This document shows, in pieces, positions 5,521 through 37,640 of a stretch of DNA of 43,009 nt; within the stretch, counting starts at the first letter, position 1, and each line of letters starts with the position of its first letter. Below the pieces are notes generated by a model. It was given only the letters and a program-made list of their open reading frames with translations, searched no databases and was not told where the DNA came from. This DNA is from a virus, in IMG/VR virus record IMGVR_UViG_3300031876_000235, positions 1 to 43,009 of that record. One strand, 5' to 3'. The translations under genes were made by a program, and so were the position numbers.

Positions 5521-6537
5521 TTAAAGGTATTCATGTGGATTTTCTGCAAACCGTTTGAAACCAATAGGATGGTATTCTATACTCCCAAAAAGCTTTTTGT
5601 AAGCATTCTTTATCATCTCTCCTTGGCGCAGATCCTTCTTAGTCCTCTTTTTATCAATAACAACTACTGGTACTCCACCACCCCGGAACAGGCTCTTCTT
5701 GACGAGATATCTGACTCGTAGATCAGATTCGCGTAAAGAACAACCTATAAAGAAAACCTTTTCAGCTTCACGAAGAGCCCTTTCAGCTTTAAGCCAGATG
5801 TTCGAAATATGCGGGTTATCATATGATTTGTACCACGCTGGTAGTATTATGAGTGGTTCTTGGAGAGTCCGATCATTCTCACATGTTGTAGATTCTGTCC
5901 ATATCCCTAAGACTATTTTCTTGCCTCTTCCTACCTTCACGCTGTTACATGTTGGACACCATACCCAATTAAGCGATCCATGAAGTTTTAGAAGGAGAAT
6001 GGACCGACCTTCTCTTGGTCGAAACCAATCTCGATCAAAATTCATAAATTCTATCCCATAATCCAGATCAAGACCTTTCTGATGCCTTAAATCAGCTATT
6101 GCATTATCAAGCAGAATATCATAGTTCAAGCTAAAGAACACATATTTGTCATGAGTAAAGCTCTGATGGTTAACCAACTTCTGCATGAGCGACCTATGGA
6201 TCGTTCCCTTTCCCCTGAGCTTTTTGTCCAGAATATTGCAAACGGTGTACAACAGATTTTCTTTTATCCTTGGAATTTCCTCACGATTCCATTTAACGGA
6301 GAAACATTCTTGCCTCTGTAACGCAGTATCAAGCAGCCCCAAGATATCCTCAAAGGAAGGAATTGAATTTGGATCTTGAAGATTTGTGTAATAGAAATCC
6401 TTAATGAAATCCTTCAGATGATTGACCTTTTCATCGTTAGTAAAGGTATCAAAAGCATTCGGTAGCAACTCATCAGTCGTGGGTGCTGATTCTTCTTTTG
6501 AGGCACCTGCTCCGAAAATAAACACAACTTTGCTCAT
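5521..6537 (-). CDS. SIR2-like NAD-binding protein
   Basis: From the ATG with an AGAGGAT ribosome site the protein has 338 aa (an upstream in-frame extension looks non-coding). It opens with VVFIFGAGAS (GAGAS, residues 9-13), the NAD-binding loop of SIR2 domains, then FFSLNYD (the conserved Asn-Asp) and LLKLHGS (the catalytic His), followed by a CPTC pair that begins a zinc-ribbon insert, and a C-terminal FIGCSLRESD. These are hallmarks of SIR2_2-type proteins, many of which deplete NAD in anti-phage defence. Here it stands alone, next to a disrupted QueC gene and a HEPN/nuclease cassette. A defence role is inference. Confidence 0.75.
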   Translation of the reverse strand: MSKVVFIFGAGASKEESAPTTDELLPNAFDTFTNDEKVNHLKDFIKDFYYTNLQDPNSIPSFEDILGLLDTALQRQECFSVKWNREEIPRIKENLLYTVCNILDKKLRGKGTIHRSLMQKLVNHQSFTHDKYVFFSLNYDILLDNAIADLRHQKGLDLDYGIEFMNFDRDWFRPREGRSILLLKLHGSLNWVWCPTCNSVKVGRGKKIVLGIWTESTTCENDRTLQEPLIILPAWYKSYDNPHISNIWLKAERALREAEKVFFIGCSLRESDLRVRYLVKKSLFRGGGVPVVVIDKKRTKKDLRQGEMIKNAYKKLFGSIEYHPIGFKRFAENPHEYL

Positions 6538-6599
6538 ATAATCCTCTCTGATAATGCTTAATAATAAGATAGGTGGCATAAAGCTTTGGAGATTTTTCG

Positions 6600-7277
6600 A
6601 TGAAGAAGGTTTTGTTTTCATTGCTATCAGGTGGTATCGATTCAACGCTGGCAACACTAAAGGCGATCCAAGCAGGAAGCAATAAAAGCGTATCAAGTAT
6701 TGTTCCGGTTTTCATTGATTATGGTCAAAAATCAAGAAAACAAGAATGGAACGCTGTATTGAAAGTGTCAGAAAGACTAAGAAAAGAAGCAAATGCAAAA
6801 GAAATCAGATTTGACCCTCCGGCAAAGATAAGATTGGCCGCATATTCCAGAAATGGATTTGGAATTTTTAAGTGGAGTGAATCGATGCTCATAAAAGGTG
6901 ACAAATCAGGTGTGGCTGAAGTTGAGAATAGAAACATGGTGCTCGTATCTATCGCAGCTTCTTATGCAAAATCTCTGACGCCCCATAATGAAAGAGCAGT
7001 CATAATCACAGGTTTCCGAAATGAGTTCTATGACACGCGCACGGAGTTTGTAAAGTAATTAAACAAAGTTTTCAAAGTGCTAAAAATGCGTATTCAAATC
7101 GACACGCCTGTCATCGAATACAAAGAAGAAGCTGGAAAGAAGAAGCTCGTTGACACGTTCACGTCGATGGGCTATAGAGACTTGATTGACCTGACTTGGA
7201 GTTGCTACACACCACACAACGATCAACCCTGTGAAAAATGCCCAGCATGCCAAAAAAGAGGCAAAGCAACCAACTGA
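6600..7277 (+). pseudogene. queC: QueC-like 7-cyano-7-deazaguanine synthase broken by an in-frame TAA
   Basis: The frame opens with the ATP-pyrophosphatase loop LLSGGIDST (residues 8-16) and continues with VFIDYGQKS and ITGFRNEFYDTRTEF, all typical of QueC, which makes preQ0 from 7-carboxy-7-deazaguanine for archaeosine or queuosine. It stops at TAA 7056-7058. The same frame then continues for a further 72 codons with LNKVFKV, IQIDTP and a C-terminal SCYTPHNDQPCEKCPACQK, the four-Cys zinc site of QueC. So one nonsense codon splits an otherwise intact gene. A GGAG site precedes the ATG. The gene is divergent from the SIR2-like gene. Genuine decay, readthrough or a base-call error are all possible. 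Confidence 0.75.
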
Positions 7278-7466: not shown

Positions 7467-8876
7467 TCAAAAAAAGTCTTCTAAATGGGTTTTAGACTTA
7501 TAGACAAGGAGTGGCGCCATGGCTCTTCCCTTGGGGCGACACTCCGTATTCTTTTCCCAAAACAGGTAAACTTTAGTCTGCAACAAGAAGCCGCAGACTT
7601 TGATCAAGTGCGAAAGCCTTTCAAGACTGGCTTTCATCACTTCTTTAGCGTAAACTTCCTTCCTTCCGAAGGGAATATGGCAGAAAAAGTATTTCATAAA
7701 GCGTGCGTGACAATGTTTAATGAACGCTTCTCTCAACTTTTCCAGACCTTCATCGCTTAGAGTTTGTAGCTTATTCAAAACGTATTTCTCGCTACCGAGC
7801 AGCTGAATGTTAAAGCCAAGTTGCCGAAGGGTTTCTGCAATTTTTAAGGCTTCTTTAGGCGGTGGCTGCTCTGCTATTTTCCTCATTTCAGCTTTCTCTC
7901 CGAACGGGTTATATTTCGCCATGACTGCTGGCATTTCCACGTAAGGCGTTCCAGCCTTAGCCAATGTTTCTTTTACAAGCTTGACGCCTAAGCCTATGGT
8001 GCGGTATTTTGGATGCACAACAACACGGCTTATAATGCTCAGCTTGCCGTTCAGTTCTTTCATTGACATCTTTGGCAGAACAAGTCTTCTTCCGAAGCAT
8101 GTGGGTGGTGGATAGCAGTAGACTATGACCCCGCATAATTCGTCGCCACGTTTCAAACAGAAGATTTTGCGTGGACCAGCTATTTTGTGGCTTCGGTAAT
8201 GGAAGCCTGCAAGCTTACGCCAATCCTCAGTAGTGCCTTCGTCTACACACATTTCCCTGACAAGACTGCATTCTTTAGCGGGCTCGTTTGGGTAATAGTT
8301 TATGGTTATCTCCTTGCCAAAACGCTTGTGAATGTGAACCGAGGGGTTCAAATCCCCTAAAAGATCCGTGTGGGTTGTAGCTGCTAAAACTGCTTTGCCT
8401 TGTTGACGTGCAAGCTTCTGAAGATTATAAGCTACGATTTTAGCCGTATCTCTATCAAGCGTAGAGCAGAACTCATCAGCAACCCAAAATTCAGCTTTAC
8501 TCTCCATCATTTTTGCTATTTTATAACGGTATTTCTGTCCATCACTCAGCTGCTCATAACTGCGTAAGAAAAGGAAAGCATCGTTTAAGCCCACCTTGCT
8601 GAGAAGCTCTAAGCCTTCCTCAAGGGTTTCACCAACAGTTTCGATTAGTGGTTTACCAATCATTGGTAAAATATCACTAATGTTAATGTAGCTTAAGCCC
8701 ATGTCTTGTTTGATGTCCTTCTCTAAGGCTTTGAGTAGAACACTTTTGCCTGAGCCTGAATCGCCAGTTATGAGTGTGATGTCCGTTGGCCCTATTTTCA
8801 ACTCAACATTATCGTAAATTATGAATTTTTCCCATTCGTCTAAGCCTAACCCGAAGCCTTCAGCCACCGCTTGCAC
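7467..8876 (-). CDS. ABC-type ATPase fused to GNAT acetyltransferase (COG2401-like)
   Basis: The 469-aa frame from GTG has an ABC ATPase domain with Walker A GDSGSGKS (about residues 38-45), signature LSDGQ (110-114), Walker B WVADE (131-135) and an H-loop ATTHTD, then a GNAT domain with VVVHPKYRTIGLGVKLV around residue 300. This order matches COG2401, an archaeal ABC-GNAT fusion of unknown substrate. There is no transmembrane part, so it is not a transporter by itself. The frame stays open without any start codon for about 57 codons upstream, and those residues look coding, so the true N terminus is probably longer (see 8877-9067). It is last in the tail operon. Confidence 0.8.
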   Translation of the reverse strand: MQAVAEGFGLGLDEWEKFIIYDNVELKIGPTDITLITGDSGSGKSVLLKALEKDIKQDMGLSYINISDILPMIGKPLIETVGETLEEGLELLSKVGLNDAFLFLRSYEQLSDGQKYRYKIAKMMESKAEFWVADEFCSTLDRDTAKIVAYNLQKLARQQGKAVLAATTHTDLLGDLNPSVHIHKRFGKEITINYYPNEPAKECSLVREMCVDEGTTEDWRKLAGFHYRSHKIAGPRKIFCLKRGDELCGVIVYCYPPPTCFGRRLVLPKMSMKELNGKLSIISRVVVHPKYRTIGLGVKLVKETLAKAGTPYVEMPAVMAKYNPFGEKAEMRKIAEQPPPKEALKIAETLRQLGFNIQLLGSEKYVLNKLQTLSDEGLEKLREAFIKHCHARFMKYFFCHIPFGRKEVYAKEVMKASLERLSHLIKVCGFLLQTKVYLFWEKNTECRPKGRAMAPLLVYKSKTHLEDFF

Positions 8877-12041: not shown

Positions 12042-12806
12042 CTATTCGACACCTCGCCTATACATCTCCTCTTCTCCAGCACGTTGAATACTACGACCAC
12101 GGGAAGGCGTTTCCGCAGCAGCCTCATTGAAACTCTGAACACTGGACGTCGCGGCGTTCATTTGACTGGCGAAATAAGCCATGGCTACTGCAGCAGCGAT
12201 TATGACGCCTATGCCAACCCCAGTGAGAGCAAGAAAAGTTGCGTGGCTAATGTTCAAGGCATTCTGGGCAGCGGTTGCAATCCATGTGGCTGCTGCTTTA
12301 ATCTTGAGGGCTACGGCTGTGGCTATGCTTGCTGAAGCGTTTGCTGATTCTGCGGTCGTGTTTAGGGCTATGGATGCCGTGTGTCCGGTCGTCACAACCG
12401 TGAGATAACTCTTCATGCGAATGAATGCAGAAACAAGCGTTATAACAGCAAGTATGGTTCTCGCCCATTTTGCGCTTTCCTTGTCGACAATGCCAAAATC
12501 TCCAGCAAGGCTTATGACTGCTGAACCCATGCTGACAATACTTGTAAACGCCATACCCACTGTTCTCAAGCTTACGGTTGTGGATTCAGCTTTTGTTTTA
12601 AGCTCTTCAAAGCCAGAGGCTGAAGCTCTAACGTTTTCTCCCATAGCCGAGGCTTCGACGCCTGTCTTGTTAAACTCCGCTCCCATAACAGAAGCTGAAG
12701 ATTGAACTCTTGTCGCCATTGCAGAAGCGTCTGAGCCTACTCTGGCAAACTCGCTACTTGCCAAGTTTTCAGCAGCAATAACTATGGCTAACTCGTTGAA
12801 GCTCAC
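12042..12806 (-). CDS. Short tape-measure-like protein
   Basis: This 254-aa Ala/Ser/Thr-rich protein has an N-terminal helical region with repeating SxASxMxxxV-type spacing, then hydrophobic segments (AFTSIVSMGSAVISLAG, ARTILAVITLVSAF, GIGVIIAAAVAMAYFAS) as found in tape-measure proteins. Its position between the gp10-like protein/tail chaperone and the tail tip gene is the standard tape-measure slot. It is unusually short; by the known link of roughly 1.5 Angstrom of tail per residue it would suit a tail below 40 nm. The stop lies 2 bp before the fibre gene. A truncated or atypical tape measure is the main alternative. Confidence 0.6.
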   Translation of the reverse strand: MSFNELAIVIAAENLASSEFARVGSDASAMATRVQSSASVMGAEFNKTGVEASAMGENVRASASGFEELKTKAESTTVSLRTVGMAFTSIVSMGSAVISLAGDFGIVDKESAKWARTILAVITLVSAFIRMKSYLTVVTTGHTASIALNTTAESANASASIATAVALKIKAAATWIATAAQNALNISHATFLALTGVGIGVIIAAAVAMAYFASQMNAATSSVQSFNEAAAETPSRGRSIQRAGEEEMYRRGVE

Positions 12807-13174
12807 TTAAAACCAGCCTCCGCCTTAGCAGCTTCAATGGCTTCTCTGATTATCTGCTCGAGCTGTGGAAGATACTCTCTAATCGCTGGATACAGAGATG
12901 GACGAGCTTGCATCCGCCTTGTGCCTAACTCCACGAATAAGGCGTAGGTGGCTTCAGCGCCTATCTCAGCAACCCACTCGCTAATCTTCGCGTAAATTGA
13001 GCTTCTCAGGTGGCCTGTTCTTACTGGAACGAGCTGTTTGGCTAAGGCTTTAACGTCTGCAGCCCAACTTGCCAAAAGCCTATGCACATGCCTCTGCATT
13101 CCGCTATCAAACTGTCTCATAGCCTCTTGAAACTTCTCGACGCCTTTAACGTCACACGTTATCTCAATACTCAT
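12803..13174 (-). CDS. HK97 gp10-like neck / tail-completion protein
   Basis: This 123-aa protein contains LVPVRTGHLRSSIYAKI followed by YALFVELGTRRMQARPSLYPA, the classic two-part signature of the HK97-gp10-like family, which acts at the head-tail junction. The length fits the family. Its ATG overlaps the stop of the frameshifted tail-chaperone product (CGATGAG), and its own stop overlaps the tape-measure start, so the three are translationally linked. Confidence 0.8.
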   Translation of the reverse strand: MSIEITCDVKGVEKFQEAMRQFDSGMQRHVHRLLASWAADVKALAKQLVPVRTGHLRSSIYAKISEWVAEIGAEATYALFVELGTRRMQARPSLYPAIREYLPQLEQIIREAIEAAKAEAGFK

Positions 13175-13700
13175 CGCAGCTTCGCCTCCCGCTTGGCTTT
13201 ATCCAGCTCCTCTTGCGTTTGCCTGTCCACCTCGTTCAGAATCACGATGAACTCTTGGATGGTTTTCGCTGGCTGCCTCTCGAGTTGCTTGGGTGTCCAA
13301 CCGAACTCTTTGCAGAGCCTGTACTCCGTGACTCTCGGGTGTGGTGTTTGTCTGCGGATTGCTCTGACAAAAAACGTGTTTCTTCAACGCTGAGGCTGTT
13401 GAGCCTGTTGGCTATTTGGCTAAATAATTCGCCTAAGCCTATTGGAACGCCGTTTTCTTCGTTAAGCAGCTTCTCAAGGGTTATGGGTTTGTGTTCTGGT
13501 TGCTCTTTCAGGCTTGCCATTATTGTTTCTGCCTGAATAGCCACGTAATCGCTTGCTACGATTTGCCCCGTCTGCTGGCTGTATTTAGTGTTTTTCTGGA
13601 TTATTCGGCTGCGTTTAGCCCACGACATCTCTTGAAAAACGTAGCGTCCAGCATACTCCTTGCCAAACCGTTCATCAATTTCAATGGTTTCTGTTCGCAT
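13171..13700 (-). CDS. Tail assembly chaperone, -1 frameshift product (gpGT-like)
   Basis: Translation of the upstream frame to the slippery heptamer at 13368-13374 followed by a -1 shift gives a 176-aa product: 111 residues in frame 0, then VRAIRRQTPH and RLCKEFGWTPKQLERQPAKT to a stop at 13171. The -1 extension looks like a real domain (the RLCxEFGWTPxxL motif and an acidic/basic helix) whereas the frame-0 tail is Ser/Arg-rich low complexity. The -1 stop overlaps the ATG of the gp10-like gene, a strong sign that this frame is used. Position, just upstream of the tape-measure region, matches lambda gpG-gpGT-like chaperones that help tail tube assembly. Confidence 0.8.
13242..13700 (-). CDS. 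Tail assembly chaperone, unshifted form (gpG-like)
   Basis: The frame-0 product has 152 aa: an N-terminal domain (residues 1-110) beginning MRTETIEIDERFG with strands and helices typical of tail-chaperone N domains, then a 42-residue tail with many Ser/Arg residues that is the non-selected overlap of the -1 frame. By analogy with lambda, both forms would be made from the same start in a fixed ratio. It follows a small 68-aa gene with a 20-bp overlap and lies after the tail tube gene, the usual order. Confidence 0.75.
   Translation of the reverse strand: MRTETIEIDERFGKEYAGRYVFQEMSWAKRSRIIQKNTKYSQQTGQIVASDYVAIQAETIMASLKEQPEHKPITLEKLLNEENGVPIGLGELFSQIANRLNSLSVEETRFLSEQSADKHHTRESRSTGSAKSSVGHPSNSRGSQRKPSKSSS
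13368..13374 (-). promoter_or_regulatory. Programmed -1 frameshift slippery heptamer T TTT TTG
   Basis: On the coding strand codons 109-111 read CGT TTT TTG, forming T TTT TTG in the X XXY YYZ register required for -1 slippage. Starting 1 nt downstream, CAGAGC can pair with GCTCTG (13313-13318), with smaller hairpins inside; the spacer is short compared with classical stimulators. Confidence 0.75.
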
Positions 13701-13897: not shown

Positions 13898-14767
13898 TCA
13901 GCTAATCACAACGTCTCTGGCAGCAAATTTCGCCTTCAAACTCACAAGATCCTCGATGCGGGTTGGCGTGGCCACGTCTTCCCACTTGCAATACTTGAAC
14001 AAGGCGCTATATGTCGCACCTAACCCGAATTTTAAGCTGAACTCAGCATCGTTGATGACATCGTCAAACTCCGTTTTATCTTCAAACTCAAATGTTAATT
14101 CACCGCTTAGATTCCTATGGCGAGCCGGCAGATACTTTATCAAGTGGGCGTCTGTGGTTTTGATGACTGTCACAGGCTTCAAGTTGTTTTCAATGATGAA
14201 TTTCCAGTCTGTTATGCGTTCTACGGCAGCTAAGCCTGAACCGTCTGCTAATCCACGCATAACATAGCTTGCACTGTAAGGAACTGCTCCACCATAGTCG
14301 CCATATGAGGCTCCGGCAATTTTGGCCGTGCCAACCGCAACGTCTTGCCCAATAAGCTCCACAGAAGCCCTCATGACGTCTTCAACACTGCATTCGACTT
14401 CTAGCTTGTTGATTCTGCAGCCTTTGTAGAGGAAGCTAATCACGTCTGAGGGGCTACTGAACAAGCCTTTGTAATACAGCACCTGAATGCTTAACGGGCT
14501 AAGCGTCTGCACATGCTGAATGAAAGCGATGGGCGACTCGCTTGTCAAAACGCTTGGAATTTTCAGATGAACCTTCCGCAAACCCTTCGTCAAGCTCTGC
14601 AAATCCCTTGACCCCACGCCTCTAACCTTTATTAAGCCCGGGTCCAATCCCGGCTCCACGCCTTCAGTGTTTATGCCAACCATCGAAGGATTCGTAGGCG
14701 TCTGTCCATAGACGCTTTCAGCTACGAAGTACACGCGGCTTTCATGCGCTCCATACGTGTCAACCAT
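13898..14767 (-). CDS. Major tail (tube) protein
   Basis: The 289-aa protein has an N-terminal YFVAESVYGQTP segment and a long beta-rich body with GRxxxKLEVEC-like strands and LSGELTFEFED, similar in plan to tail tube proteins of siphoviruses. Its place is diagnostic: it follows the neck/terminator-like gene and precedes the tail chaperone, gp10-like and tape-measure genes. It would form stacked hexamer rings of the tail. Start is ATG with GGTG-like pairing upstream. Assignment is by position and fold impression rather than by a catalytic motif. Confidence 0.65.
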   Translation of the reverse strand: MVDTYGAHESRVYFVAESVYGQTPTNPSMVGINTEGVEPGLDPGLIKVRGVGSRDLQSLTKGLRKVHLKIPSVLTSESPIAFIQHVQTLSPLSIQVLYYKGLFSSPSDVISFLYKGCRINKLEVECSVEDVMRASVELIGQDVAVGTAKIAGASYGDYGGAVPYSASYVMRGLADGSGLAAVERITDWKFIIENNLKPVTVIKTTDAHLIKYLPARHRNLSGELTFEFEDKTEFDDVINDAEFSLKFGLGATYSALFKYCKWEDVATPTRIEDLVSLKAKFAARDVVIS

Positions 14768-33839: not shown

Positions 33840-36149
33840 TTAAAGCAGATCGAATCTCACATAGAATTTCCTTTCACTCTTACCAGAAGCGATTTCGAAA
33901 TACTGCCTCAAATTGTCTGGAATTGGGATGAATATACGATTCTTTGTAACGATTGTGGTAGTTGGATAGACCCCTCCACCCGCAAGACCCCCAACATCCT
34001 CAAACAATTCGATGTCATAATATAAAGAGAACCCACTTGATGCATGCGTAAATATGAAGATTATTCTATGGCCCCCCCAGATGATTCTCGTGGCATGCGG
34101 GGCTACGAAAAAGAAATATTCCTCTTTGAAGGCACGTTCAGAAATTGCCAGAAACATCTTGAAATTGTTTAAAACAGGGCTTTGTTTGTCTACTACAAGT
34201 AATTTCTTGTCCGTGCCTACCTCTGTTCTCAGTATCGCCGGTGAAGGTTGAAATGCAAGTAGTGAGGCTTCTTTGGGCGGCTGAATGGGATTCTCAACCA
34301 AGTCGGGTATTTCGGTTTCAAGGCTTCCGATGTTATTTCTTGCTATTTCTTGCGTTTGAGTGTTTTTGAGCGCACTGAACTTATTGATTACTTCATTAAA
34401 TGATACCTTGCCGGCCAAGAACTCAGAAAATGCCGATGTCAATCCAATGTCGTCAATCCCGATTTGATATAATTCTCTTTTCTTCTTAAGTATCGTCTGG
34501 AGAGCATCCGCACCTTCCTTGGTAGAAGACGGAACCCAGCTGCGGATCTGCGGGTATATGTAAACCCTCACATAGTCTTTAATGAAACCTGGAAACACGT
34601 CACGTGAATCATGATAACATCTAAGAATCGGTTGTACCGTTGGATGACGTCTCTGAATGGCTATTTCAACTGTTCCCTGTGTTGGAGAACTTACAAGAAG
34701 AGGAAGATTATGCGTTAGATCGGCAAACCTGATCTCAACATTCTGAAGTGCATAATCATCCTCAAGAATGTTCTTCGTCAAGACCACAAAAGACACTTCG
34801 TCCATTTCATACTCGCTTTCTGGATACACCTTCAATATTCGAGGCGTATCTACGATCTTTTCCGCTTTAAGGAATTGCTGAATGAATTGAGCTTCAACTT
34901 GTCTTCTTGGACTAGATCTTGACAAAACGATCAACAGTTTATCCGGAGTGGCTAAGGATTTTATGAGTCCCACATCAGCACCATCATAGTAATTGACCGT
35001 CTGATTCTGAGAGTATTCTTTCAATTCTTCCAATGTCATCTCTTGTTCAGGTTCAACTTTTGGCTGCAATTTACCAGCAAGGGATATTTTCCCGGTCGAT
35101 AGAATATAAGACATGAAAGCGTTGCTCCTATTGCTTATCTCTGATTCAGACAGGGTAATAGTAGCGCATTCTTCTACTAGCTTGATGAGTTTTGATGCCA
35201 AATCGATGCTTCCCCTGCTCAGGGCCTCTCTTCCAGCGGTAGGCAAAAGAATTGAGAGATTCAGTATTCCCCCAAGAGAATAAAAGGAACTTATTGGAAT
35301 TGGGGCAAGTCCAAAAGAGCTCCTAAGCCCCCAAAGATGACCACTATCCTGTCTAAGATAAGCTACTCCGTCAATCGCCTCTCTCGATATCGATATGTTG
35401 CTAACGGACGCTGAAACTCTGGCATTGTAGTCACATTTTATCAAAACGTCGGCTTTTACTCCTGCGTGTTCGAATCCAACCCATTTTCGCTCCAATCTAG
35501 GAGAATCCTCTCTGTACTTTTCCTCCATCGATTTTTGGCTGATAACAATTCCGTTCAATTCCACCTTAGTGGGCAAGTATTGCACAAATTGAGATAAATA
35601 GTTCCGAGCATGTTCAAGATCAAATGTAACTTGCGGATCAAGTGTCACAGTTATTGTAGTACCATATGCACCCATCGCAGCGATCTTCTCAATACTGATG
35701 CAATCTTCTGAAAGAGAAAGATTTTTCCTATCAACTTCGCTGATTATCCTTTCTTTGGTTTCAATGGATTCCGTTTCAACTCTTAGCCTCGAGCACACCC
35801 CGAAGTTTGCCATTCCTCCGATACCAAATGTGCCTATAACTCCAGATTTTTTCGCAAGTTCAGTCTTTTTTCCACTAGAACCAGCCTTCCAGTAGTTCTC
35901 TTTTAGAACCTTCTCTGGCATCCCGATTCCATTGTCGAAAATGATTATCTTTTCTTTGCCCACTTGCACTCTTATTATACCGTCTGCTTTAGCTGACCAT
36001 TCTCCTTGAGTATAGTGTTCCCTCATCAGAACAGCGTCATAAGCATTTTGAACGTTCTCCCTTAATAAAGCATAAGGAGAATCGTAGATCTCTTTAGAAA
36101 GAACGTCCAGCACTCTCTCTATCTCAATCTGGAATTTAATCTTCTCCAT
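33840..36149 (-). CDS. HSP90/GHKL-type ATPase protein
   Basis: The 769-aa protein has an N-terminal GHKL ATPase: LLRENVQNAYDAV (N-box, E31, N35, D38), IIIFDNGIGM (D72, G74, G76) and GVIGTFGIGGMANF (glycine lid, about 103-116), followed by a middle domain containing SISREAID (Arg of the HSP90/MutL middle segment). The remaining 400 residues do not match HtpG and are family-specific. The ATG directly follows the stop of the metallophosphatase gene (TAGATG), so the two are coupled. HATPase proteins of this kind occur in defence systems; the pairing here is not one I recognise. Confidence 0.75.
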   Translation of the reverse strand: MEKIKFQIEIERVLDVLSKEIYDSPYALLRENVQNAYDAVLMREHYTQGEWSAKADGIIRVQVGKEKIIIFDNGIGMPEKVLKENYWKAGSSGKKTELAKKSGVIGTFGIGGMANFGVCSRLRVETESIETKERIISEVDRKNLSLSEDCISIEKIAAMGAYGTTITVTLDPQVTFDLEHARNYLSQFVQYLPTKVELNGIVISQKSMEEKYREDSPRLERKWVGFEHAGVKADVLIKCDYNARVSASVSNISISREAIDGVAYLRQDSGHLWGLRSSFGLAPIPISSFYSLGGILNLSILLPTAGREALSRGSIDLASKLIKLVEECATITLSESEISNRSNAFMSYILSTGKISLAGKLQPKVEPEQEMTLEELKEYSQNQTVNYYDGADVGLIKSLATPDKLLIVLSRSSPRRQVEAQFIQQFLKAEKIVDTPRILKVYPESEYEMDEVSFVVLTKNILEDDYALQNVEIRFADLTHNLPLLVSSPTQGTVEIAIQRRHPTVQPILRCYHDSRDVFPGFIKDYVRVYIYPQIRSWVPSSTKEGADALQTILKKKRELYQIGIDDIGLTSAFSEFLAGKVSFNEVINKFSALKNTQTQEIARNNIGSLETEIPDLVENPIQPPKEASLLAFQPSPAILRTEVGTDKKLLVVDKQSPVLNNFKMFLAISERAFKEEYFFFVAPHATRIIWGGHRIIFIFTHASSGFSLYYDIELFEDVGGLAGGGVYPTTTIVTKNRIFIPIPDNLRQYFEIASGKSERKFYVRFDLL

Positions 36150-37619
36150 CTAGATCCCTCTATCTGCGAGCTTTTTTATAATCCGTTTATATGGCTCGGA
36201 ATCGACGATTTCCGTTCTAGAACTTAGTTTGTCAACAAGCTCTTTCAGGTCTTTGATTCTGCTCCTTCTCCACAGCGACTCTGATAAATATGCGAATTCT
36301 GTCACTGAATTCGGCTCTTTTATGAAATCGGCCAATTCGCCATCCATGTCCAATTGCCAGAGACATTCGATTGTAAATCTTCTGACAAACGGATTTCCTT
36401 GATCGAGAAGCTCTAATTTTGCCAAGGCCTGAGAGTATTCCTTCTTTGCGATTAGGTCTTCAACTTCGACTAATCCTTTTAGAAGAACTGATTTAGCTGG
36501 CATTTCATATTCCTCTACTATATGTCTTTCTAGTTTAACATCTATGTAGCTTTTGTCTTTGTTCTGCCTTATGTTACCGGGCATCCATATGGGCAATTCT
36601 GGAGGCTGCTCCACAGCCTTTCTTATGTGATATCTTAGGTTGGTCAAAGAATCGTCTATTTCAATAATGCTGTACTGATTGGATACTCCCAAAGGGATGT
36701 TTTGTGGCGATGCACTCAAGCTTCCACATCCAAAAACAGGCATCTTAACCGATTGATCCGCATTGAATTTGATCTCGAAAATCTCGTCTTTGTGAAGATG
36801 ACCGTGAAGCCCAATCTGAAATCCCTTGTCGATTAGAAATTGTACTACTCTTTCATCCATAAAGTCTGCTCTGTTGGGAAACCCATGTAAATCATGGTGC
36901 CAAACCGCAATTTTCAGCCAATCGTCAAATTTTTCTTGGCTAATGTAACTATAGCAACTGGCTATACATTCAGGATGAATCCTGCTAGTCAGGTTTAGAT
37001 GATCATTCAGAAAGCAGGAGTTAAAGCCTGCGAATAGCGTCTTGTATTTTGGAAATTCAAAAATGTCATATTGTTCTTCAGGGATTAATGAGTACTTTCG
37101 TTGATTGTTGTAGAAAGCAGTGTAAAACCTTGCAAATGGAAGCAATCTTTGTTCGTAGAGATCGCGGTCGTATATTTGATAGAATGAAAAATCCTTCCAA
37201 TCCCAACGCACATTACTTTCTGGCCGCTTGCAGAGTCCAACAAAGTTATGATCAGCTTTGTTGAGCTTTTGCATACTCTTCCTCGAATGAGGCCATGAAA
37301 CGTCATGGTTACCGGGAATCATCACAATCCTATTTTTGTCACCGTTAAATAGCATTGCACATACCTGATTTAGGATATCTGTCACTTCACTATATTGCTG
37401 TTCGATTTCTTGAATTGCAACATCAAAATCTTCAATCTGACCGGAGCCTTGAATAATATCGCCACAAATCACTAATATATCTGGTCTTGGGACGGGAATT
37501 TCTTCATTTGCATACCTTGATATGTCGGATACGATGGAAGACACAAAAGCCTTGTTGCTAGGGAAAACTGAGATTTCTTTGTGTAGGTCTGAAACTTGCA
37601 TTATTACTAACTGTAACAT
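36150..37619 (-). CDS. Calcineurin-like metallophosphatase
   Basis: The chosen ATG lies 25-26 nt after a TATA-like GATTTTTAAC at 37641-37650, giving a leaderless 489-aa product; a TTG five codons earlier is possible. Motifs are QVSDLH (D11, H13), VICGDI (G53, D54), IPGNHD (N104, H105, D106), WHHDLHG and GLHGHLH: a complete dinuclear metallophosphoesterase site in the first 290 residues. The C-terminal 190 residues are helical and of unknown role, possibly TPR-like (YSQALAKLELLDQGNP). Adjacent HSP90-like ATPase is read from the same mRNA. It could hydrolyse a nucleotide messenger or nucleic acid (inference). Confidence 0.78.
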   Translation of the reverse strand: MLQLVIMQVSDLHKEISVFPSNKAFVSSIVSDISRYANEEIPVPRPDILVICGDIIQGSGQIEDFDVAIQEIEQQYSEVTDILNQVCAMLFNGDKNRIVMIPGNHDVSWPHSRKSMQKLNKADHNFVGLCKRPESNVRWDWKDFSFYQIYDRDLYEQRLLPFARFYTAFYNNQRKYSLIPEEQYDIFEFPKYKTLFAGFNSCFLNDHLNLTSRIHPECIASCYSYISQEKFDDWLKIAVWHHDLHGFPNRADFMDERVVQFLIDKGFQIGLHGHLHKDEIFEIKFNADQSVKMPVFGCGSLSASPQNIPLGVSNQYSIIEIDDSLTNLRYHIRKAVEQPPELPIWMPGNIRQNKDKSYIDVKLERHIVEEYEMPAKSVLLKGLVEVEDLIAKKEYSQALAKLELLDQGNPFVRRFTIECLWQLDMDGELADFIKEPNSVTEFAYLSESLWRRSRIKDLKELVDKLSSRTEIVDSEPYKRIIKKLADRGI

Positions 37620-37640
37620 TTTTGTTGATTCCAAAGCTTG

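Follow-up and report, generated by a model that had tools for sequence, protein, structure and literature searches.

Does the gene that follows the tail tube gene of an archaeal tailed virus encode one protein or two? The question is raised by a minus-strand locus in IMG/VR virus record IMGVR_UViG_3300031876_000235, the whole 43,009 bases of which are here called the window. Portal, terminase, tail tube, HK97-gp10-like and tail proteins recognized across the window with PHROG and Pfam make up a tailed-virus gene set. An open reading frame starting at ATG 13700 (frame 0) reads MRTETIEIDERFG...SVEETRFL up to a run of six thymines, and a second coding stretch continues from there in the -1 frame. 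The locus is very probably the tail assembly chaperone gene of a Bathyarchaeia tailed virus or provirus, which would produce two proteins from one start codon by a -1 slip at T_TTT_TTG. That ribosomes slip here, how often they do so, the tRNA events involved and the role in tail assembly are all proposed from sequence.

Codons 109–111 of frame 0 are CGT TTT TTG. The heptamer T_TTT_TTG (13374–13368) thus stands in the X_XXY_YYZ register of -1 slippage, as the first-pass annotation of the window had read it. Unshifted translation continues for 41 more codons to TGA 13244–13242 and ends in Ser/Arg-rich sequence. The -1 frame product reads VRAIRRQTPHPRVTEYRLCKEFGWTPKQLE...AKLR and ends at TGA 13173–13171, so that the fused protein has 176 residues. 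This TGA overlaps the ATG (13174–13172) of the HK97-gp10-like gene; both the overlap and the coherence of the -1 domain had been recognized earlier and are upheld here, the latter by a protein family match described below. The proposed course of expression is as follows. (i) Most ribosomes would stay in frame 0 and yield a short, gpG-like form, composed of the folded domain and a polar tail of approximately 41 residues. (ii) A minority would slip back one base, with tRNA-Phe on UUU in the P site and tRNA-Leu on UUG in the A site re-pairing on U_UUU_UUG. (iii) The slipped ribosomes would produce a long, gpGT-like form with a second helical domain (LCKEFGWT). (iv) By analogy with lambda G and GT, the short and long forms would together cover the tape measure and attract subunits of the tail tube.

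One line of support is conservation of the slip site. Relatives were gathered by scans of viral contigs, a GTDB genome scan and a search of 257 Bathyarchaeia genomes, and include 228 distinct nucleotide sequences in which both domains are present. In 228 of 228 the second domain is offset by -1, with a homopolymeric heptamer standing in register at the junction. None has both parts in one frame or lacks the heptamer, which answers a check that had been suggested for the locus. The heptamer is TTTTTTA in 171 sequences, TTTTTTG in 19, AAAAAAC in 30, AAAAAAT in five and AAAAAAA in three. The fewest changes of heptamer type that the tree needs are 14, with no loss; changes between T and A number two on a quick tree of 125 rows and four on a tree of 227 rows, and because many branches are weakly supported the claim is limited to a heptamer type that changed more than once and was not lost.

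Codon choice singles out the same position. In the 125 non-redundant genes used for codon and start tests, 115 of them T-type, the 13,482 codons upstream of the site contain just two in-frame homopolymeric heptamers. At the site itself the Phe codon of all T-type genes is TTT (24% of Phe codons elsewhere), the Leu codon is always TTA or TTG (together 27% of Leu codons elsewhere) and the codon before TTT invariably ends in T, as do 15.5% of third positions overall. The residue specified by that preceding codon varies (among them Ala, Arg and Thr). As the sequences share ancestry, such counts should not be taken as independent of one another. The coding phase switches at the heptamer: as far as codon 108 column entropy is highest at frame-0 third positions, and from codon 112 onwards at those of the -1 frame. 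More distant kin, at seven proviral loci in six Bathyarchaeia genomes, have a different frame-0 sequence and keep A_AAA_AAA in the same place; a scan of viral contigs with this clade found no relatives. T_TTT_TTA is retained in an archaeal relative (L103), and A_AAA_AAG or A_AAA_AAA, with the -1 offset, in six Bacillus phages. The invariance of the heptamer in 228 distinct relatives suggests that the -1 slip of phages and haloarchaeal viruses is widespread in Bathyarchaeia viruses too.

The stretch between the heptamer and the frame-0 stop codon is probably read in both frames in T-type viruses. Past the heptamer, the 190 T-type sequences keep frame 0 open for 28–46 codons; in A-type sequences it stops after 0–4 codons in 32 of 38. 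The first 40 overlap codons of 42 thinned T-type sequences contain two frame-0 stops, against 20.6 +/- 4.1 expected from synonymous redrawing of the -1 codons, whereas the third frame, used as a control, contains 41 against 36.7 +/- 5.4. Among Ile, Leu and Val codons standing before an A, none of 89 in the overlap ends in TA or TG, compared with 188 of 347 upstream. The unshifted tail of T-type viruses is therefore kept open by selection. Its end had been described as low-complexity Ser/Arg sequence; the composition is right, but the tail is not a meaningless one, since T-type relatives avoid its stop codons. An alternative for the overlap alone, compatible with ribosomal frameshifting, is that avoidance of stops keeps ribosomes on the mRNA to the next gene, or avoids termination near the slip site, and that the tail itself is not useful. 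The open stretch of the window ends approximately 70 nucleotides before the next gene start, and the tail sequences are polar and variable, as such an account would have it. The 32 A-type viruses that terminate so soon after the heptamer nevertheless evidently manage. This alternative is a serious contender for the overlap, somewhat less likely than not.

Three further explanations concern the long form as a whole. RNA polymerase might slip on the T6 or A6 run, giving mRNAs of altered length that encode the long form. A homopolymer of six or seven bases is indeed found at the site in every homologue, and T and A runs would both serve. Runs of six are short for known transcriptional slippage, however; the run is six in 120 of 125 genes and not lengthened, and the X_XXY_YYZ register, which a slipping polymerase would not need, is always kept. 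Polymerase slippage is accordingly considered improbable. Still less likely is a separate gene, in which the -1 open reading frame would have its own start codon and no frameshift would occur. Several records do annotate the Bacillus homologue as a stand-alone coding sequence, but 97 of 125 genes, that of the window included, offer no ATG, GTG or TTG from the point where the -1 frame opens to the conserved core, and the invariant heptamer would be left unexplained. An assembly or sequencing error splitting one intact gene, for which the position of the break within a six-base homopolymer speaks, is refuted by the recurrence of the offset in 228 distinct sequences, which stem from numerous metagenomes and genome projects, by the occurrence of both T and A runs and by the avoidance of frame-0 stops, and deserves next to no credence.

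The identity of the protein is supported from both of its parts. The -1 domain matches PHROG 9001, a tail assembly chaperone family (E=1.2e-14), is 36–47% identical to Bacillus phage chaperones, and is modelled as helical. Matches of this domain to TAL effectors in a PDB sequence search cover only 12 residues and were rejected as repeat artefacts. The frame-0 domain found nothing above the cut-off in Pfam and nothing significant in PHROG. An AlphaFold2 model of its residues 1–111 has a mean predicted local distance difference test score (pLDDT) of 91.7 and, in a Foldseek comparison with chaperones in BFVD, resembles those of Siphoviridae sp. ctsDY37 (E=2.3e-4) and Haloarcula californiae tailed virus 1 (HCTV-1; 4.5e-3). 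Further predicted chaperones matched by this fold are those of Bacillus phage Gemini and Haloarcula hispanica tailed virus 2 (HHTV-2) and, weakly, Mu FS-gp41; PDB entry 3klu (YqbN) is a weaker match (E=0.09).

The host of the window virus is most likely a member of the Bathyarchaeia, as judged from its relatives. Twenty of 22 hits in the GTDB genome scan are labelled Candidatus Bathyarchaeota, several in contigs of more than 100 kb, and the other two are one Candidatus Bipolaricaulis and one other archaeon (L103). The chaperone gene or its -1 domain is present in 39 of the 257 Bathyarchaeia genomes. Homology, predicted fold and the Bathyarchaeota contigs of relatives together support the earlier description of the gene as the tail chaperone of an archaeal tailed virus. 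One relative (L100) is filed under a bacterial metagenome-assembled genome (MAG) of Candidatus Bipolaricaulis, a possible case of mis-binning or host jump. The MAG of Bathyarchaeota A05DMB-2 contains the frameshifted chaperone gene five times (including L082, L083, L086 and L091), which implies multiple proviruses.

Several points weigh against programmed ribosomal frameshifting at this site. Its support consists of sequence comparison and a predicted fold. No stimulatory RNA structure is detectable, though many -1 sites have one. The CAGAGC/GCTCTG pairing that the first-pass annotation pointed to just downstream exists as letters, but starts one nucleotide past the heptamer and shows no compensatory change in 64 sequences. 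It was rejected as a stimulator: no pair is changed on both sides, and pairing of columns 9–14 with 57–62 is no better than in column shuffles (74.7% of cells paired, against 74.8%). Its halves are conserved because they lie on conserved codons of the -1 frame (VRA/IRA and RLC). RNAalifold found no consensus structure in the relatives. Just past the heptamer the mean folding energy is weak and does not dip at the spacing where a stem or pseudoknot would be expected (approximately 5–9 nucleotides). An Rfam search of the window gave no match. Lineage-specific stimulatory structures may exist. Since no conserved RNA structure was found downstream, the principal signal appears to be the heptamer itself, possibly helped by features of its surroundings that went unrecognised. 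A-site re-pairing is less favourable on TTTTTTG, the heptamer of the window, than on TTTTTTA. The host tRNAs are a further difficulty: TYW1, which makes wyosine on tRNA-Phe, is above the cut-off in 200 of 257 Bathyarchaeia genomes, and -1 frameshifting is reportedly prevented when position 37 of tRNA-Phe carries wyosine (PMC7761594). A slip site used in hosts likely to carry wyosine makes the system useful as a test. A broader proposal is advanced tentatively: that the overlap is dual coding, with a selected unshifted tail of 28–46 residues in the U_UUU_UUR type that is mostly lost in the A-type, and that a bare heptamer, with no stimulatory RNA structure, operates in wyosine-pathway hosts at a rate that may vary with how tRNA-Phe is modified.

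Lambda, with the slip site G_GGA_AAG, is one known system with which the locus can be compared. The lambda-type gpG/gpGT gene (Xu, Hendrix and Duda 2004, as cited in PMC7911831) lies between tail tube and tape measure and gives a short form and a minor -1 form with an added C-terminal domain; the same arrangement is proposed here, with a candidate in the place of the tape measure. A slippery heptamer conserved despite low protein similarity is common to both. Bathyarchaeia viruses differ from lambda in their U_UUU_UUR or A_AAA_AAC/U/A site and in the gp10-like gene between chaperone and tape measure, and those of the U-type also in the long frame-0 tail that is kept. Among archaeal viruses, a chaperone -1 frameshift has been inferred for the haloarchaeal viruses HVTV-1 and HCTV-1, -2 and -5 (PMC5009743, PMC8211752) and for Hardycor1 (PMC7911831). 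The HCTV-1 chaperone is predicted to share the fold of the frame-0 domain of the window. The hosts of these viruses are haloarchaea, not Bathyarchaeia, and no U_UUU_UUR site is reported in the three papers. The earlier statement that such shifts are well known in phages and rarely shown in archaea is thus fair for experiments, but overlooks the haloarchaeal cases already inferred.

Bacillus phages of the Andromedavirus group and related ones (Riggi, Eoghan, Blastoid, 276BB001) have a homologous -1 domain, which is likewise offset by -1 with a heptamer in the corresponding position. They differ in that their heptamer is A_AAA_AAG or A_AAA_AAA, frame 0 terminates no more than a few codons later, the frame-0 domains are dissimilar in sequence and the gp10-like gene lies upstream of the tube gene. 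The record of phage 276BB001 annotates a short chaperone and a joined, two-piece coding sequence. Riggi, Jayan, Eoghan, Blastoid and Andromeda (L104, L105, L165, L166 and L168) carry in-register A_AAA_AAG/A and the -1 offset, yet are annotated with two genes. The commonest heptamer here, U_UUU_UUA, is also that of gag-pol in human immunodeficiency virus type 1 (HIV-1), which has a downstream stimulatory stem; gene and virus are unrelated, and no stem was found here.

The surrounding genes are consistent with a tail module (table 1). The chaperone gene is flanked upstream by a clear tube gene and downstream by the gp10-like gene, followed by a tape measure candidate with a weak match. The order of tube, chaperone, gp10-like, tape-measure-like and tail protein genes is common to most relatives inspected. 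It had been said to match that of phages, which is true of the tube, chaperone and tape measure candidate; the gp10-like/Neck1 gene does not fit, as the related Bacillus phages carry it upstream of the tube gene. The gene in the tape measure position is very short: 254 residues in the window and 181–334 in relatives with a clear gene, among the syntenic open reading frames inspected in L007, L035, L049, L075 and L100. Such a length suggests that the tail is very short or that the tape measure is of a different kind.

Table 1. Features of the chaperone locus and its neighbours in the window.
Feature	Position	Strand	Remarks
Tail tube protein	13898..14767	-	PF18906 Phage_tube_2 E=2.8e-18
Frame-0 chaperone product, 152 residues	13242..13700	-	Folded domain, residues 1-111, and polar Ser-rich tail of 41 residues
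Slippery heptamer T_TTT_TTG, codons 109-111	13368..13374	-	T- or A-type in 228/228 distinct homologues
-1 frame domain, 65 residues (VRAIRR...AKLR) and TGA	13171..13368	-	Predicted to be joined to residue 111 by frameshift
Overlap, probably read in both frames	13242..13367	-	T-type relatives avoid frame-0 stops
HK97-gp10-like/Neck1 protein, ATG overlapping -1 frame TGA	12803..13174	-	PF04883 E=4.5e-8, phrog_5 E=3e-21
Short tape-measure-like protein, 254 residues	12042..12806	-	Mainly position; weak phrog_167 E=0.49; synteny in relatives
Tail protein, 991 residues	9064..12039	-	phrog_400 E=4.5e-12, PF24032 YQBQ E=1.2e-8

Elsewhere in the window, an ABC-type ATPase fused to a GNAT acetyltransferase domain (7467–8876, minus strand) lies next to the tail module. 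A SIR2-like protein (5521–6696, minus) and a partial QueC-like protein (6600–7058, plus) have overlapping coordinates on opposite strands. At 33840–37634 (minus), a gene for an HSP90-like ATPase (PF13589) adjoins one for a calcineurin-like phosphoesterase; the two are a possible defence pair, and the phosphoesterase matches PADLOC candidate PDC-S60 (E=2.7e-10).

Demonstrated programmed frameshifting is still very scarce in archaea; one -1 case, the alpha-L-fucosidase of Sulfolobus, is named in PMC8211752. The word 'frameshift' is absent from PMC10848311 and PMC11705971, which deal with Bathyarchaeia viruses or archaeal proviruses. Because the literature covered is limited to open papers, priority is not claimed. 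The mechanism is known, and what is new lies in the clade of hosts, the occurrence in archaea of the HIV-1-type site U_UUU_UUA, the swapping of U and A sites, and probable dual coding. Conserved recoding, known from bacterial phages and inferred in haloarchaeal viruses, is extended to Bathyarchaeia viruses, and 228 distinct sequences without exception provide evolutionary support far beyond a single-genome prediction. For the annotation of Bathyarchaeia viruses, the rule that follows is to join both chaperone open reading frames. The family also offers a natural series within one gene, in which U_UUU_UUA, U_UUU_UUG, A_AAA_AAC, A_AAA_AAU and A_AAA_AAA are interchangeable, and which lends itself to finding out how much archaeal ribosomes and tRNA modifications will tolerate.
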